Assembly (NCBI RefSeq): GCF_000233715.2
Contig: NC_021184.1
Coordinates: forward strand, 1,054,001 to 1,118,000
Reading direction: 5' to 3'
DNA from: Desulfoscipio gibsoniae DSM 7213
GTDB taxonomy: Bacteria > Bacillota > Desulfotomaculia > Desulfotomaculales > Desulfallaceae
DNA: 64,000 nucleotides
Under the pieces are notes generated by a model, which saw nothing but the letters and a program-made list of their open reading frames with translations, did not search any database and had not been told where the DNA came from. Position 1 is the first letter of the stretch. Every line of letters begins with the position of its first letter. Made by a program: the position numbers and the translations under genes. Shown here piece after piece: positions 33,938 through 54,091 of this stretch.

Positions 33938-34360
33938 TCAATCAAGAGTCAAGGATGATTGAACCACCCAGAGATCTATTTGAGACATTAAGCCAAAACG
34001 TTCGGCAACAGGTATAAACCTGCCGGGAGAGATTGTCTGCCCGTTCTTATCTTGGAGTCGAATCAGGGCTTCGTGATGAATAATTTTTCCGTCACCTACT
34101 CTAACCACTGATTGAAAATAAAGCACAAACCGGTCTTCTTTTAAGGTACTCTTAACCAACCCAACCAACTGGTTGGTTTCAGTAAGCCTGTTTATCGGAT
34201 CTTTTTCGGACCCGGCAAAGGCAAACCTGTTCCGGCCCCATTCCTTAGCTGCATAAAGGGCAGTATCCGCGAGAGAGAGAAGTTTTTGATTATCTAAAGA
34301 ACCGTCAACCATGACAATACCAATACTGATCCGTTTGATCAAGCGGACGGAGGCAGGCCC
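33938..34360 (-). pseudogene. GGDEF-EAL protein, internal fragment
   Basis: The minus strand encodes the end of a GGDEF domain (SIGIVMVDGSLDNQKLLSLAD, TALYAAKEWGRNRF; the GGDEF loop itself is missing) joined to the start of an EAL domain (FVLYFQSVVRVG, HHEALIRLQDKNG, FIPVAERFGLMSQID). The rest of the EAL domain and all N-terminal sequence are gone. In the intact protein these domains make and break cyclic di-GMP. The 5' side is cut where the leader of the first rph-like gene begins. Confidence 0.75.
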
Positions 34361-34390
34361 ATAGCGGCCCACCTTAAGGAGGGAGCCCGT

Positions 34391-37096
34391 ATGAATGCAT
34401 ATGTACTTGGTTTCCAAGATATCGACAGAACAAAGCTCATGGTCGTCGGGGGCAAAGGCTTAAACCTGGGGGAGCTATCAAGGATTGAAGGGATACGGGT
34501 ACCGGAGGGGTTTTGCGTCACCACCAAGGCGTACAAAAGAATGATCGGGCCGAACCAGGAGTTCAATATCTTGCTCGATCAACTATCAGCATTAAAGGTA
34601 GACGACAGGGAAAGCACCGGTGCCATCAGCGGCAAGATCCGTAAGGTCATCGAAGGGATAGAAATCCCCAGGGACATCGAGGAAGAAATCATTTGCCATC
34701 TCGCAAAGCTTGGCGAGGAGCATGCCTATGCCGTGCGTTCCAGCGCCACCGCCGAGGATCTGCCGCTGGCCTCCTTTGCGGGCCAGCAGGATACGTATTT
34801 GAACATCAAAGGAAAGGATGCCATCCTGCGGCATATCAGCAAGTGCTGGGCGTCGCTGTTTACGGACCGGGCGGTGATCTACCGCATGCAAAACGGCTTT
34901 GACCACCGCAAGGTCTACCTGTCTGTCGTTGTCCAGCGGATGGTTTTCCCGCAGGTATCAGGGATTATGTTTACCGCCGATCCCGTCACCTCCAACCGGA
35001 AGGTGCTGTCCATCGATGCCGGCTTCGGGCTGGGCGAGGCGCTGGTCTCCGGCCTGGTGAATCCTGATATCTACAAGTTACGGGAGGGTAGGATCGTCGA
35101 TAAGAAGATATCCACCAAGAAACTGGCCGTCTACGCATTGGAAAAAGGCGGCACGGAGGAACGGGAGATCGAGCTCGTCCGGCAACATGAGCGGGCGCTG
35201 ACCGACGAGCAGGTTTTGCGGCTTGAAGGCATGGGCCGCAAGATCGAGGCGTATTTTGGCTGCCCACAGGATATCGAATGGTGCCTTGCTGATGATGCAT
35301 CAGTTGGGGACATTCATACGTTGGGGACATTCCTCCGCAGGAGGTGTGTCCACTTTCCGCTGAAGGAGGTGTGTCCCCTTTCATTTTTCATCGTGCAGAG
35401 CCGCCCCATCACTACCTTATTCCCAGTACCGGAAAACGATGGGCGAATGCGGGTCTACGTATCGCTAGGCCACCAGCAGATGATGACGGATGCCATTAAA
35501 CCGTTGGGGATGTCCTTCTTCCAGTTGTTAGCTGGTGATTTTCCAATGCACAAAGCCGGTGGGAGGTTGTTTTGGGAGGTAACGCACGACCTGGCCTCAC
35601 CCGTTGGCCGCAAGATCGTGCTCAGTACGATGGGCAAGAGCGACCCGCTGACAGTGAACGCGATCAATAGTTTAATGCAGCGGAAGGATTTTTTGGCATC
35701 ATTACCGTGCGGAAAGAGATCCATCAGCATGCGGACCGAGGGAATGTCCTGGGCAATGCCCGTTGAGGCCTTAAGGATCTACCGTAAAAACGACGCAGCG
35801 GTCGTTCAAGATCTCATTGCCCGCAGCGAGGCGTCGATCAGAGACCTGCGGCAAAGGATCGCCAACATCTCCGGGGATGAACTGTTTGCCTTTATTGTCC
35901 AGGACCGTAAGCGGCTAAAAGAAATCATGTATGATCCACGCGGCTATGGAGCGATCGCCGTCGCGGTGTTAGTCTCGGGTTGGATCAATAACAAAATGGA
36001 AAAATGGCTGGGCGAAAAGAGTGTCGCCGACACGCTTACCCAATCGGTACCCAATAACGTCACCTCCGAAATGGGGCTGGCGCTGCTGGACGTAGCGGAC
36101 GTCGTCCGGCAATACCCGGCGGTGATGGAGTATTTTCAGCATGCCTGTGATGAGACCTTCTTCGAGGACCTGGTGAAACTGGAAGGCGGCGATGCCGTCA
36201 GTCGTTCCATGCGGGCGTACCTTGAGAAATACGGTATGCGTTGTCCCGGCGAGATTGATATCACCAGGACGCGTTGGAACGAACAGCCGACCGCCCTCAT
36301 TCCCGCGATCCTTAGCAACATCAAGAACTTTGCGCCCAATGCGAGCAGCGTTAAGTTTGAGCAGGGACGGCTGGAAGCAGAGGAGAAGGAACAGGAACTC
36401 TTGAGCCGCCTGGAGCAATTGCCCGGCGGCAAGCAAAAGGCCAAGAAGACAAAGAGGATGATCAGCGTTTTGCGCAACTTTATCGGCTACCGGGAATATC
36501 CCAAATATGGCTTCATCCAGCGTTTCTGGATCTACAAGCAGGCCCTGCTGAAGGAGGCCGCCAGGCTCGTGCAAAAGGGGGTCATCCGGGAGAAGGAGGA
36601 CATTTACTACCTGTCCTTCGAGGAACTCCGTGAGGTTGTGCGCACAAATCGGCTGGATTACAGCATTATCACCAGGAGAAAAGAGGAGTACGAGGTCTAT
36701 GAGAAGCTGACGCCGCCGCGGGTGATGACTTCCGAGGGCGAGGTCATCTCCGGTGAGTTCAACACCGGCAACATCCCCCGGGGCGCTTTGCCGGGCATAC
36801 CCGTTTCAGCCGGCACCATCGAGGGTAGGGCGCGGGTCGTTTTAAAAATGGCGGACGCCGACATAGAGGAGGGCGATATCTTGGTTACCGCCTTCACTGA
36901 CCCCAGCTGGACGCCGGTATTTGTGTCCGTTAAAGGGCTGGTGACGGAAGTTGGCGGGCTGATGACCCATGGCGCCGTCATTGCGCGGGAATACGGCCTT
37001 CCGGCAGTGGTAAGCGTGGAAAACGCCACCAAGCTGATCAGAGATGGACAGAGGATTCGGGTGAACGGAACGGAAGGGTATGTGGAAGTGCTGTGA
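34391..37096 (+). CDS. Rifamycin phosphotransferase-like / PEP-synthase-like enzyme 1
   Basis: A 901-aa three-domain protein. The ATP-binding PPDK_N domain (1 to about 345) has VVGGKGLNLGELSRI and AYAVRSSATAEDLPLASFAGQQDTY. A long helical middle domain contains GNVTSEMGLAL-like sequence (NNVTSEMGLALLDVADVV) and EKYGMRCPGEIDITRTRW. The C-terminal swivelling domain carries GGLMTHGAVIAREYGLPAVV with the phosphorylated His860. The architecture and motifs fit Rph, which phosphorylates rifamycins using ATP, better than true PEP synthase, whose PEP/pyruvate domain is absent. Residues 304-330 are an insertion derived from a palindromic repeat. ATG with AAGGAGGG upstream. Confidence 0.82.
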   Translation: MNAYVLGFQDIDRTKLMVVGGKGLNLGELSRIEGIRVPEGFCVTTKAYKRMIGPNQEFNILLDQLSALKVDDRESTGAISGKIRKVIEGIEIPRDIEEEIICHLAKLGEEHAYAVRSSATAEDLPLASFAGQQDTYLNIKGKDAILRHISKCWASLFTDRAVIYRMQNGFDHRKVYLSVVVQRMVFPQVSGIMFTADPVTSNRKVLSIDAGFGLGEALVSGLVNPDIYKLREGRIVDKKISTKKLAVYALEKGGTEEREIELVRQHERALTDEQVLRLEGMGRKIEAYFGCPQDIEWCLADDASVGDIHTLGTFLRRRCVHFPLKEVCPLSFFIVQSRPITTLFPVPENDGRMRVYVSLGHQQMMTDAIKPLGMSFFQLLAGDFPMHKAGGRLFWEVTHDLASPVGRKIVLSTMGKSDPLTVNAINSLMQRKDFLASLPCGKRSISMRTEGMSWAMPVEALRIYRKNDAAVVQDLIARSEASIRDLRQRIANISGDELFAFIVQDRKRLKEIMYDPRGYGAIAVAVLVSGWINNKMEKWLGEKSVADTLTQSVPNNVTSEMGLALLDVADVVRQYPAVMEYFQHACDETFFEDLVKLEGGDAVSRSMRAYLEKYGMRCPGEIDITRTRWNEQPTALIPAILSNIKNFAPNASSVKFEQGRLEAEEKEQELLSRLEQLPGGKQKAKKTKRMISVLRNFIGYREYPKYGFIQRFWIYKQALLKEAARLVQKGVIREKEDIYYLSFEELREVVRTNRLDYSIITRRKEEYEVYEKLTPPRVMTSEGEVISGEFNTGNIPRGALPGIPVSAGTIEGRARVVLKMADADIEEGDILVTAFTDPSWTPVFVSVKGLVTEVGGLMTHGAVIAREYGLPAVVSVENATKLIRDGQRIRVNGTEGYVEVL
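35303..35380. repeat. 77-78-bp palindromic repeat inside a coding sequence
   Basis: Nearly identical to 53899-53975 (GTTGGGGACATTC, then CCTCCG.AGGAGGTGTGTCC and a second GGAGGTGTGTCCCCT). It is flanked by TCA on both sides (35300-35302 and 35381-35383), compatible with a 3-bp target duplication. Net gain is 81 bp, exactly 27 codons, so the rph-like frame stays open. Confidence 0.85.
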
Positions 37097-37198
37097 CAGT
37101 CCCAGGAGTACAACTCCCGGGAGTTATCTTACTTTCATTGGTTTAGAATAGTAATGGATTTTTAGACCCTATTATCCTTTAGGAAAGGGGCAACCAGT

Positions 37199-39844
37199 AT
37201 GAATCGGTACGTTTTCTACTTCAATGAAATAGACAAATCCAGTCTGGCCAGCGTGGGGGGTAAAGGAGCAAACCTGGGCGAACTGTGCCGTATTCCCGGG
37301 ATTGTGGTGCCGGCAGGTTTTTGTGTGGCTACAAGCGCTTACAGGGATTTCGTGAATACGAGCAGGGAGTTTGCCGCCTTGCTGAAAACCCTGGAATCAA
37401 TTAATGCTGAATCAATGGAGGAACTCAAGGCCGCGGGAGAACGCATGCGCACTCACTTGGAAAATCTGGACATTCCCGCCCCTATCCAACAGGAGATCAT
37501 CCAGGCCTGGCGAAAGACCGGCAGTCATCATGCCTATGCCGTACGCTCCAGTGCCACGGCGGAAGACCTGCCGGGAGCGTCTTTTGCCGGACAGCAGGAT
37601 ACTTTCTTGAATATCGAGGGTGAGAAGAACATCCTTGACAGTGTCCGAAAGTGCTGGGCTTCTCTGTTCACCGACCGGGCCATCGCTTACCGGCAGAAGA
37701 ATGGTTTCCGGCATGATCAAGTATTGCTGGCCGTGGTGGTACAGCGGATGGTCTTCCCCGAAGTGTCGGGGATCATGTTTACGGCCGATCCGGTGACCGG
37801 CAACCGGAAAATCGTATCCATCGATGCCAGTTTCGGCCTGGGCGAGGCACTTGTGTCAGGCGTTGTCTCCGCCGATTTGTACCAGGTAAGAGCGGATAAA
37901 TTGATCAAGAAACAAATAGCAAAGAAAGAGATCGTCATCTATGCCCGGCCTGAGGGCGGGACAGCAAAAGTGGAACTTGAGGGAGAGAGGCAGACCGCCC
38001 CGGCTTTATCGGAAGAACAAGCGGTCAGGCTGGCCCGGATGGGACGAAGTATCGAAAATCACTTTGGTTCTCCCCAGGACATCGAGTGGTGTCTCGCTGA
38101 CAATAAAATATTTGTTGTGCAGAGCCGGCCGATTACGACTCTCTATCCCGTTCCCAAAGCCGACGATGATAAACTTCACCTTTTCCTGTCTATCGGCCAT
38201 CCGCAAATGATGACTGAGGCTATAAAGCCCCTGGGGATATCGGTATTCAGGACTGTTTTTCCTTTCGGCAAAAGATCGCCTCAGGCAGAGAGCGATCTGC
38301 TGCGAGAAGCCGGCAGCAGATTGTATCTCGATTTGACCCCGATGCTTGAGTATCGGGAGGCAAGGAAACGATTGCCCGAAATGCTGCTCAATCTTGATGA
38401 ATCAATGAGCCGGGCGGTGCAGGAATTCGTTGAGCGAGAGGAATTCCAGGCTGCGGCGCAGCCCGGCAAAAGAGTGGAGTTTGGGCTGGTAAAAAAGGCC
38501 TTTCCGACGGGCTTTGCCGTCCTCAGAAATATCCTGTACCGTGATAATTACCAGGCCATTGATGAGATGAACCGGTTTATTGCCGAGCAAGTCAAGGAAA
38601 ACAGGGCTAAGCTGCAAGAGGTGTCGGGTGCGGATAGAATCGCGCAGATTCAGGAAATGCTGTCTACTTTAATACCAAGGGTTGTTCCGATGGTAGCCCA
38701 GTACTTGCCGACCGCGATCATTACTTTCAAGCTCATTGAGAGTCTGTCCAAGAAGTGGCTTGGTGACGCAGCCGAATTGGGCAACATCAGTAAATCCCCG
38801 CCGGGGAACGTAACCACGGAAATGGGATTGGCGCTGGGAGATGTGGCCGATGCCGTGCGTAATTATCCGGCGGTGATCGAATACCTGAAGCGGGCAGCCG
38901 ACGGAACATTTTGGGATGGCCTTAAGACTGTTCCCGGCGGAGAAGAGGTGCTGCCTGTTTTCTTAAGTTTTTTCGAAAAGTATGGTATGCGGGGGACGGG
39001 TGAAATCGACATTACCCGGTCGCGGTGGCGTGAGGCTCCGACCCAGTTGGTTCCCGCCATTCTGAGCCACATTAAGAGTGTCAGACCCGGGCAGCATCGC
39101 TGTGATTTCCTGGCCGGGAAAGAGGATGCTGAACTTGCCGCCGAAAGGCTGCTTGAGCGCCTGCGGCAAACGCCCCGTGGATCCTTCAAGGCCAGACGCA
39201 TGCAGCGGCTGATCAGGGTGCACCGCTCATTGATTGGGATCAGGGAACATCCCAAATACTATGTTATGCAAAACTTCGATCTGATCAAGCAGGCCATTTT
39301 GCAGGAGGCCGATGAACTGGTGGCGGCCGGAGTTCTGGATCGCCCGGAAGAGGTGTTTTGGTTTTCGCTGCAGGAGATCAAGGAAATGATCGAAACACAG
39401 TGGGTGGATCGCAAAGTTGTTGCTCAGCGCAAAGAAAAATATGAACATGATGCCAAGCTGACTCCGCCCCGGGCTATAACCAGCGAGGGAGAGATCATCA
39501 CCGTTAAACCGGGAGCCGAGGTCCCACCGGGCGCGCTGACCGGGAGCCCGGTGTCGGCCGGCACCATCGAGGGCCGCGCCCGGGTCATCCTCAGGCTGGA
39601 AGAGGCTAAAATGGATAAGGGGGATATCCTGGTGGCGCCGTACACCGATCCGGGCTGGACGCCGTTGTTCCCCCTAGCGGCCGGTCTGGTAACGGAAGTC
39701 GGAGGCTTAATGACCCATGGCGCCGTGGTGGCCCGGGAATATGGCATGCCGGCGGTGGTGGGGGTCGATAACGCCACGAAGCTGATCAGAGACGGACAGA
39801 GGATCCGGGTGAACGGAACGGAGGGGTATGTAGAAGTGATATGA
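37199..39844 (+). CDS. Rifamycin phosphotransferase-like / PEP-synthase-like enzyme 2
   Basis: An 881-aa tandem paralogue of the preceding gene with the same domain order. ATP-binding domain VGGKGANLGELCRI and AVRSSATAEDLPGASFAGQQ; IEWCLADNKIFVVQSRPIT marks the end of that domain without the insertion found in paralogue 1. The middle domain has NVTTEMGLALGDVADAV. The swivelling domain has GGLMTHGAVVAREYGMPAVV with His840. GGAAAGGGG ribosome site. A 14-bp perfect palindrome AACTCCCGGGAGTT at 37112-37125 lies in the gap between the two genes. Substrate unknown; phosphorylation of a rifamycin-like polyketide is the family precedent. Confidence 0.83.
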   Translation: MNRYVFYFNEIDKSSLASVGGKGANLGELCRIPGIVVPAGFCVATSAYRDFVNTSREFAALLKTLESINAESMEELKAAGERMRTHLENLDIPAPIQQEIIQAWRKTGSHHAYAVRSSATAEDLPGASFAGQQDTFLNIEGEKNILDSVRKCWASLFTDRAIAYRQKNGFRHDQVLLAVVVQRMVFPEVSGIMFTADPVTGNRKIVSIDASFGLGEALVSGVVSADLYQVRADKLIKKQIAKKEIVIYARPEGGTAKVELEGERQTAPALSEEQAVRLARMGRSIENHFGSPQDIEWCLADNKIFVVQSRPITTLYPVPKADDDKLHLFLSIGHPQMMTEAIKPLGISVFRTVFPFGKRSPQAESDLLREAGSRLYLDLTPMLEYREARKRLPEMLLNLDESMSRAVQEFVEREEFQAAAQPGKRVEFGLVKKAFPTGFAVLRNILYRDNYQAIDEMNRFIAEQVKENRAKLQEVSGADRIAQIQEMLSTLIPRVVPMVAQYLPTAIITFKLIESLSKKWLGDAAELGNISKSPPGNVTTEMGLALGDVADAVRNYPAVIEYLKRAADGTFWDGLKTVPGGEEVLPVFLSFFEKYGMRGTGEIDITRSRWREAPTQLVPAILSHIKSVRPGQHRCDFLAGKEDAELAAERLLERLRQTPRGSFKARRMQRLIRVHRSLIGIREHPKYYVMQNFDLIKQAILQEADELVAAGVLDRPEEVFWFSLQEIKEMIETQWVDRKVVAQRKEKYEHDAKLTPPRAITSEGEIITVKPGAEVPPGALTGSPVSAGTIEGRARVILRLEEAKMDKGDILVAPYTDPGWTPLFPLAAGLVTEVGGLMTHGAVVAREYGMPAVVGVDNATKLIRDGQRIRVNGTEGYVEVI

Positions 39845-39869
39845 ATGCTTAATTCTTCGGAGATAAAAT

Positions 39870-39902
39870 TTAGCCCGGTAAATCCATGAATTTACCGGGC
39901 TA
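39870..39902 (+). terminator. Strong hairpin terminator after the rph pair
   Basis: TTAGCCCGGTAAAT and ATTTACCGGGCTAA arms with a short loop, then a T-run after eight bases. It separates the convergent coat-protein genes. Confidence 0.8.
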
Positions 39903-39962
39903 ACCCAACTTTTTTCCCACCAGGATGGTAAAGTCAACGGTGAGCCGTATAAAAATTTCGGT

Positions 39963-40160
39963 TTAAACAGGATTTCGTTGCCCGGCTTTTTGAGCCATTA
40001 AATCTGCGAACTGGCGTTGATGTTGTTGAATAGTGTTCTGATGTTGCAGCAATTTCTGTCTTAAATCTTCGCTGCCGGCGTCCGCAGCAAGACGGGCAAA
40101 AGTGGCGGCTGTCATTTTTTCAAATTCCGCTGCGTCAAAAAGCATATCAGCTTCATTCAT
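39963..40160 (-). CDS. Small helical protein, coat-associated
   Basis: A 65-aa soluble protein, nearly all helix and Gln-rich (LQHQNTIQQHQRQFADLMA). ATG with AATAGGAGTG upstream. It follows the CotF-like gene by 15 bp on the same strand and resembles the short companion proteins of coat clusters. No specific function known. Confidence 0.65.
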   Translation of the reverse strand: MNEADMLFDAAEFEKMTAATFARLAADAGSEDLRQKLLQHQNTIQQHQRQFADLMAQKAGQRNPV

Positions 40161-40175
40161 TTTATGCTATCACTC

Positions 40176-40418
40176 CTATTGAGGGAATTTATTCATCATC
40201 TGCTGAAATTCTTGGGCAGTTTTTTGTTGAACTTGGCTGATTTGATTGAATAAGTTCTTTACCTGTGGGTCAACTGCCTGCTGACTATAAAATTGATATT
40301 TTTTAGCGGCTAAATCTTCTAATTTGTAAGCATCCCGTGCAACGTAATAATCCTTTGCCAAGATATCACCCCCCTTCCCGCCTATAATATTTTGCACATC
40401 TTCATAAGATATATTCAT
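40176..40418 (-). CDS. CotF-like spore coat protein
   Basis: An 80-aa protein in the Coat F family style: a short N-terminal segment with ILAKDYYVARDAYKLEDLA and helices rich in Gln and Lys (FNQISQVQQKTAQEFQQMMN). Such proteins are assembled on the spore coat; the ferritin-like helices are seen in many Clostridia. First gene of a two-gene minus-strand unit. Confidence 0.65.
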   Translation of the reverse strand: MNISYEDVQNIIGGKGGDILAKDYYVARDAYKLEDLAAKKYQFYSQQAVDPQVKNLFNQISQVQQKTAQEFQQMMNKFPQ

Positions 40419-53898: not shown

Positions 53899-53975
53899 GT
53901 TGGGGACATTCATACGTTGGGGACATTCCTCCGTAGGAGGTGTGTCCCCTTACCGCTAACGGAGGTGTGTCCCCT
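53899..53975. repeat. 77-bp palindromic repeat, intergenic copy
   Basis: Partner of the copy inside the first rph-like gene (35303-35380); the two differ at only about five positions. GTTGGGGACATTC appears twice, opposed by two AGGTGTGTCCCC segments, so the element can fold on itself. It begins eight bases after the radical SAM stop. Confidence 0.85.
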
Positions 53976-54031: not shown

Positions 54032-54091
54032 GTTGGGGACATTCCTGTCCCCAGAGAAATACCCAAGCTTCAGCAGGTGTGTCCCCTTTCC
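54032..54091. repeat. Related GGGGACATTCC...GTGTCCCC palindrome
   Basis: AGTTGGGGACATTCCTGTCCCC and AGGTGTGTCCCC surround an unrelated 25-bp centre. Same family as 53899-53975 but rearranged. A chance frame (54033-54215) across it is not a gene. Confidence 0.6.

Follow-up and report, generated by a model that had tools for sequence, protein, structure and literature searches.

How a genomic palindromic repeat comes to lie in frame inside an otherwise intact enzyme gene, and whether this happened once or many times, is the question raised by an rph-like gene of Desulfoscipio gibsoniae. The gene lies in the window analyzed here, a stretch of 64,000 nucleotides that covers positions 1,054,001-1,118,000 of a genome assembled as a single contig of 4,855,529 bp. 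The original prediction, made from the letters alone, was that an intergenic repeat had been inserted into the ATP-binding domain of this enzyme as a rare, isolated event. The features involved are listed below in window coordinates.

34391-37096, + strand: rph-like/PEP-synthase-like gene bearing the insert, 901 aa, with a PPDK_N ATP-binding domain and a PEP-utilizers mobile domain
35300-35383, + strand: the 84 bp (28 codons, residues 304-331) added to this gene and missing from the 18-residue family loop, as delimited by family loop comparison
35303-35384, + strand: composite repeat with outer arms and an inner hairpin (35323-35353), used as an 82-nt search query
37199-39844, + strand: tandem rph-like paralogue, 881 aa, with the native 18-residue loop (DIEWCLADNKIFVVQSRP), from its ORF and the loop alignment
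53899-53975, + strand: intergenic copy of the composite repeat, immediately beyond the stop of the preceding ORF; at 94% identity, the best match besides the query
54035-54085, + strand: a further intergenic member of the repeat family, belonging to the other subtype (GTCCCC...CTTCAGCAGG interior), next to the 53899 copy

The 901-aa protein scores 1351 bits against the NCBIfam rph (rifamycin phosphotransferase) model NF041857, above its curated cut-off of 999, and two PEP-synthase subfamily models score higher still (NF004877, 1493 bits). Lys22, Glu296, Gln336, Arg338 and His860 are kept, and K22, R116, E296 and H860 are invariant across 30 sequences. The top PDB matches, by sequence and by structure, are to the rifampin phosphotransferase (RPH) of Listeria, the best being 5fbs. 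The Listeria monocytogenes enzyme (5FBS, 5HV1) has the same domain order, taken for this comparison from PMC4844700, and in the alignment it has a plain hairpin without an insert. With a score above the cut-off, the three-domain architecture, and the catalytic histidine and ATP residues, the 901-aa protein has the features expected of a rifampin phosphotransferase. Judged from its sequence, it is an rph-like enzyme for which rifampin is a putative substrate.

Exactly where predicted, between IEWCLADD and FFIVQSRP, the 901-aa ORF contains the repeat in frame, and the tandem paralogue reads through the same position with a plain loop. The predicted intergenic counterpart at 53899 is also present, with 94% identity across 77 nt (E 2.4e-27). 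Two details of the prediction were revised. The loop from DIEW to Q(S/T)RP is 46 residues long against 18 in the family, so that 28 codons (residues 304-331) were added rather than 27 (304-330). In addition, the TCA triplets that had been taken for a target duplication recur at the edges of other copies of the repeat: TCAGTT also stands before GGGG in three other rows of our repeat catalogue (L013, and L380 twice), and four non-rph rows have TTTCA after CCCC (L004 twice, nested; L345; L376). Because these edges recur, the TCAs are better read as parts of the element. No target-site duplication of the kind expected of a MITE was found for the window insert, and a duplicated TCA could not be accommodated given the loop length of the family. 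The structure itself is nested, with outer arms GGGGACA (35306-35312) and TGTCCCC (35372-35378) around an inner hairpin (35323-35353) that folds with z scores of -2.77 as DNA and -2.58 as RNA. A repeat finder at default settings listed no inverted pair for the insert, and Rfam gave no match within 34300-40200.

The insert belongs to a repeat family, GGGGACATTCC..GGTGTGTCCCC, that is present in tens of copies in D. gibsoniae, nearly all of them intergenic. A search of the genome for further copies, proposed with the original prediction, gave 21 places with a match to the 82-nt query at E<=1e-3, one of them the query itself. Within the window, TTGGGGACA occurs five times against 0.82 expected and GGTGTGTCC five times against 0.18. 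A strict core pattern, GGGGACATTC..GTGTCCC, was found 23 times in D. gibsoniae (G000), 72 times in G044, 53 in G060, 35 in G012 and eight in G036, with five in G006, three in G002, two in G004 and none in G038, G048 or G061; these counts include nested matches, and the reversed-pattern control gave zero in all 11 genomes. A looser pattern gave 65 matches in G060, 31 in G107, 20 in G489, 11 in G036, one in G479 and none in G038 or G061, its reversed control matching once each in G489, G038 and G060. The family is multicopy in several genomes of the class of D. gibsoniae and also beyond this class, at least in G107, the only one of the four genomes of its own class to give a match. Subtype pairs like that at 53899 and 54035 occur elsewhere too (L008, L020), and Desulfocucumis has head-to-tail arrays of the repeat with a spacing of 60-61 bp (L384, L394, L398).

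The repeat catalogue comprises 185 rows, some nested, drawn from stretches of eight genomes and partial for G060 and G107. Only 16 of these rows lie inside an ORF that extends 60 aa or more to both sides, and they amount to eight accepted genes, five of them rph: seven rows fall in the five rph genes, three in other Pfam-supported genes, five in ORFs without Pfam support and the last one ahead of a likely start. The ORFs spanning L244, L245, L249, L251 and L265 were not counted as genes (a Pfam match in none of the five), nor was L383, where by our reading the repeat lies upstream of the start of a recombinase-like gene. The three other Pfam-supported genes with an in-frame repeat are a second PPDK_N protein of D. 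gibsoniae and a hypF and a radical SAM gene of G044. The first of these, PEP-synthase-like, carries its repeat (L279, chromosome positions 1043929-1043979, outside the window) in a different loop and in the opposite orientation; in G044, the repeat in hypF is apparently double, and the other gene is of the B12-binding radical SAM type (L257, L241). In our reading, the repeats in all three non-rph genes are oriented oppositely to the inserts of the rph loop. Viral contigs gave 34 matches to the repeat pattern, none with the rph loop.

To what extent the insertion is particular to D. gibsoniae was addressed with a survey of 113 distinct rph-family loci, each at least 55% identical to an insert-free relative and deduplicated by upstream sequence. 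The loop is 18 residues long in 97 loci (including L070, which has QTRP in place of the QSRP pattern and was read separately), 19 in one, 21 in one and 28-58 in 14. Each of the 14 long loops contains the repeat or what is left of it, always in the same orientation. Even the four inserts that have decayed most (two of Desulfocucumis, that of G038 and that of a Desulfosporosinus MAG) have matches among genomic repeats at 72-77%, a level reached in 0 of 200 shuffles for each. The carriers are as follows.

Desulfoscipio group: D. gibsoniae (G000), a D. geothermicus MAG (G002) and Desulfoscipio sp. L (G006)
Other genomes: G036, G038, G044, G107, G479, Syntrophomonas sp. DTU019 and a Desulfosporosinus MAG
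Paralogue pairs: two of G488/G489, one with a double repeat, and two of Desulfocucumis palustris (Desulfocucumis bearing the handles G060 and G449)

Much as predicted, then, a hairpin of an otherwise intact and conserved enzyme contains an in-frame insertion of a genomic palindromic repeat. The expectation of an isolated event gives way to a picture in which other genera, and paralogues too, have other versions of the repeat in this loop. A 5' anchored pattern matched nine of the 113 genomes of the class, one of which (G008) has a match without an rph loop, in what looks like dapF, as we assume, and two of 398 genomes in a phylum sample; both counts are lower bounds since decayed inserts escape this pattern. 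Of the 113 class genomes, 34 have an rph-family match at E<=1e-100, and four carriers were among the 80 named loci kept from 565 confirmed relatives. In 190 rph HSPs, many of them redundant, pairs of repeat motifs, one mismatch being allowed, occurred solely at query positions 301-338, with lone motifs at positions 53, 56, 297 and 770; decayed repeats elsewhere would escape this detection.

The presence of extra loop residues in several genera could be taken to mean that the segment is a native subdomain of the rph enzyme family and no repeat at all. We regard this as highly improbable and rejected it, as the insert DNA is up to 94% identical to intergenic repeats, the lengths and sequences differ between genes, and orthologues do not all share a conserved segment here, most of the surveyed loci having the plain loop. 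The inserts add 10-40 residues, with neither sequence nor length conserved, and they have cores of two subtypes, of 31 bp and 50-52 bp. They also differ in the native residues that they leave in place: SED is kept after the insert in G006 and in copy A of G489, ADDx is kept before it in G000 and G479, and neither is kept in G044, G038 or Desulfocucumis. Exactly 16 residues are added in five loci (G044, G107, G038 and the two Desulfocucumis paralogues), which may share an origin.

In gene trees computed without the loop, carriers are scattered among insert-free sisters, with nine changes for nine carriers, eight of them forced by well-supported branches, in sets of 33 and of 96 rows. A 41-row tree, from which five wanted rows are absent, required 13 changes for 13 carriers, nine of them forced. 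On all three trees the carriers were no more clustered than shuffled labels, with 500 of 500 shuffles as low. A tree that joins nine carriers in one clade was rejected on the 33 rows (p-AU 4.5e-44), a set that leaves out G107, G479, G489 A and B, L030, L034, L121 and the paralogue, and in a test that assumes one tree per gene, an assumption broken by recombination. A single ancestral insertion followed by vertical descent was rejected on the strength of the two insertion positions, the two subtypes and this test.

An alternative that has to be weighed is that one to three ancient insertions were spread by homologous recombination and horizontal transfer, most of the scattered cases being copies or losses. 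Several observations favor it. One insert (98% over the core) is common to G044 and G107, in a gene that is otherwise mosaic: over the approximately 400 nt just upstream, G107 (L284) is only 63-76% identical to G044 (L026/L136) and matches Desulfosporosinus nitroreducens at 87-95%. The rph genes are multicopy, with five rph-like loci at 64-80% identity in one genome. Desulfoscipio sp. L (G006, L132) has two rph copies in tandem, of which one carries the insert and the other the 21-residue loop, with signs of gene conversion just upstream of the loop; the 21-residue loop is possibly an excision scar, which would suit this alternative, or else a small duplication. The equal length of the five inserts of 16 residues also points this way, and a single orientation of all inserts is expected from common descent as well. 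Flank comparisons strengthen the alternative a little. In the 90 nt from the FF codons, 3' of the insert, seven of 12 carriers have another carrier as their best match (sole or carrier-only), two of the seven being the G044/G107 pair. Carrier-to-carrier best matches number 3/12 in the 5' 90 nt, 5/12 in the 90 nt after QSRP and 6/12 in the 150 nt after it, and at a distance 3/12 far 5' and 3/11 far 3', against a background in which 11 of 27 possible partners are carriers. As the near-3' flanks favor carriers, short shared tracts are possible. On the other side, in the 5' 90 nt and at both distant positions carriers are best partners no more often than their share would give, one event could not account for two insertion points and two subtypes, and the one-clade tree is rejected, within the assumption stated above. 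We consider a spread from so few insertions possible, but on balance doubtful.

Most likely, therefore, several separate insertions were made at one hairpin, some of them spread by recombination; we estimate at least three events and probably five to ten. The inserts are not clearly closer to repeats of their own genomes than to those of other genera. The rph genes of G038 and G061 (Syntrophomonas), genomes without a copy by either pattern, may have arrived with the insert already in place.

The reading that we prefer, with a probability of roughly 0.65, is that a REP-like repeat entered one rph hairpin several times, that some copies then recombined or decayed, and that the result is tolerated as a loop. 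In this reading the segment is a copy of a non-autonomous REP-like palindromic repeat of the GGGGACATTCC..GGTGTGTCCCC type, which inserted in frame at the tip of a beta-hairpin, between the IEW strand and the QSRP strand of the ATP-grasp domain in rph-like enzymes. The same tip would have been entered in different lineages and in paralogues, at slightly different codons, with some copies later moved between genes by recombination and others decaying while the frame stayed open. In-frame copies would survive because the tip is a loop, in which the added residues form a disordered bulge within a gene under purifying selection.

The condition of most carrier genes is in keeping with this. They are intact with an open frame, and Ka/Ks is 0.14-0.28 in five carrier/sister pairs, indicating purifying selection. 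In G000, G002 and G006 the lineage-specific N/S of the carrier does not exceed that of its sister. In G038 (0.51 vs 0.26) and G044 (1.16 vs 0.89) it is higher, which counts against the reading, as do the two insert-bearing paralogues of G488/G489: both are interrupted, by internal loss or frame change, and these lesions are common to the two related genomes (L282, L283, L287, L288). In a predicted model of the 901-aa protein (mean pLDDT 72, pTM 0.60, from 30 sequences, with residues 792-901 poor), residues 304-328 have pLDDT below 50 and the strands at 293-301 and 330-339 are kept, so that the insert is predicted to be a disordered bulge between intact strands. Enzyme activity is presumably retained in the carriers.

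Given its location, the added loop might instead tune ATP turnover from beside a Mg-coordinating glutamate, with selection keeping or regaining insertions. In our alignment, Glu296, just before the insert, appears to be the counterpart of Glu297 of Listeria RPH. According to PMC4844700, Glu297 appears to coordinate Mg, and its Ala mutant keeps rifampin resistance with a kcat approximately 10-fold or more higher and a higher Km. As this mutant stays functional, the hairpin can tolerate change, and a kinetic effect of the insert is possible. Recurrence in one loop and the open frame of even the decayed inserts (Desulfocucumis, G038) would fit a useful loop. Such a role is nonetheless improbable, given that the inserts are unconserved in sequence and length and are predicted to be disordered, that they are absent from the large majority of loci, that the G488/G489 carriers are broken, and that N/S follows no common direction, being equal or lower in three carriers and higher in two.

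Which enzyme mobilizes the repeat was approached through Y1 transposases, for which a search had been proposed together with the original prediction. Y1 genes do occur, with 15 matches in the D. gibsoniae genome and genes in 13 of 14 genomes searched. The expected association with the repeat did not appear: none of 50 Y1-gene stretches from 13 genomes (10 from D. gibsoniae, some overlapping, and a subset of all Y1 genes) carries an end of the type GGGGACATTC or GGGGACACAC, and a transposase as neighbor of the repeat was accordingly rejected for these stretches. Several RAYT-type Y1 genes are flanked instead by GGGGACGGTTC palindromes. At L299, L308, L312, L319, L320, L323, L325, L326 and L332, Y1 genes have ACACAAGGGGACGGTTCTTTTGTGT-like flanking palindromes, a different family that shares the GGGGAC core. 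As no Y1 stretch carries the ends of the rph-loop repeat, we infer a helper only indirectly: insertion would require a transposase of the Y1/HUH (IS200/RAYT) type, and the lack of a target-duplication sign, the hairpin, the single orientation in the rph loop and the widespread Y1 genes would fit IS200/RAYT-like single-strand transposition. The loop DNA may likewise be a preferred target, beyond being the sole place that selection tolerates. That the hairpin-tip DNA is a true landing site, entered in one orientation by strand-specific ssDNA-type transposition some ten times in several Bacillota families and each time adding 10-40 residues, is a tentative proposal that we think rather unlikely. 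If it were true, the rph gene family would be a standing host for the GGGGACATTCC-type repeat.

Among known systems, in-frame palindromic insertions have been described in Rickettsia and some proteobacteria (PMC3733652). The Rickettsia palindromic elements (RPE) resemble the rph-loop repeat in being genomic palindromes found in frame in genes, where they encode short peptides, and the rph repeat shares with them insertion in intact ORFs, acting in this respect as an RPE does. They differ in belonging to another phylum and in being listed, in PMC3733652, in different genes, whereas the rph repeat occupies one loop of one enzyme family in 14 loci. REPs of the GTAG and CGTC superfamilies are likewise short and mostly intergenic, with some in ORFs, single or double, and often 20-30 residues long (Di Nocera et al. 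2013; PMC3733652); the same paper reports REPs at about the same recB site in two Xanthomonas species. The rph repeat differs from these in starting with GGGGAC and in recurring over several genera and paralogues, compared to two species for recB. It is a short foldable palindrome with many, mainly intergenic copies, as REPs are, and no GTAG/CGTC tag was found among its 15 commonest left tetranucleotides (commonest GATC, CGTT, AATC and AGTT); for lack of this tag it is called only REP-like. TIRtrons and RAYT-associated repeats are reported to have a GGGGWSAS motif common to the terminal repeats of some transposase units, and the rph repeat differs from them in its ends being absent from the Y1 stretches.

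Literature searches returned no report linking rifampin phosphotransferase with palindromic insertion and none on independent in-frame insertions of miniature inverted repeats in orthologous bacterial proteins. The GGGGAC repeat family was not seen among the matches listed, most of which were judged by their listing. As far as these searches show, what is new is the presence of this repeat family in these anaerobes together with its strong recurrence in one enzyme loop. One 18-residue hairpin, entered by one repeat family in many lineages and accompanied by plain sister genes as controls, makes it testable whether REP-like elements have target specificity, and whether repeat peptides alter enzyme function or are merely tolerated. 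Finally, the inserts range in age from near-perfect palindromes to decayed sequences with the frame kept, and provide a time series of parasite sequence becoming protein.
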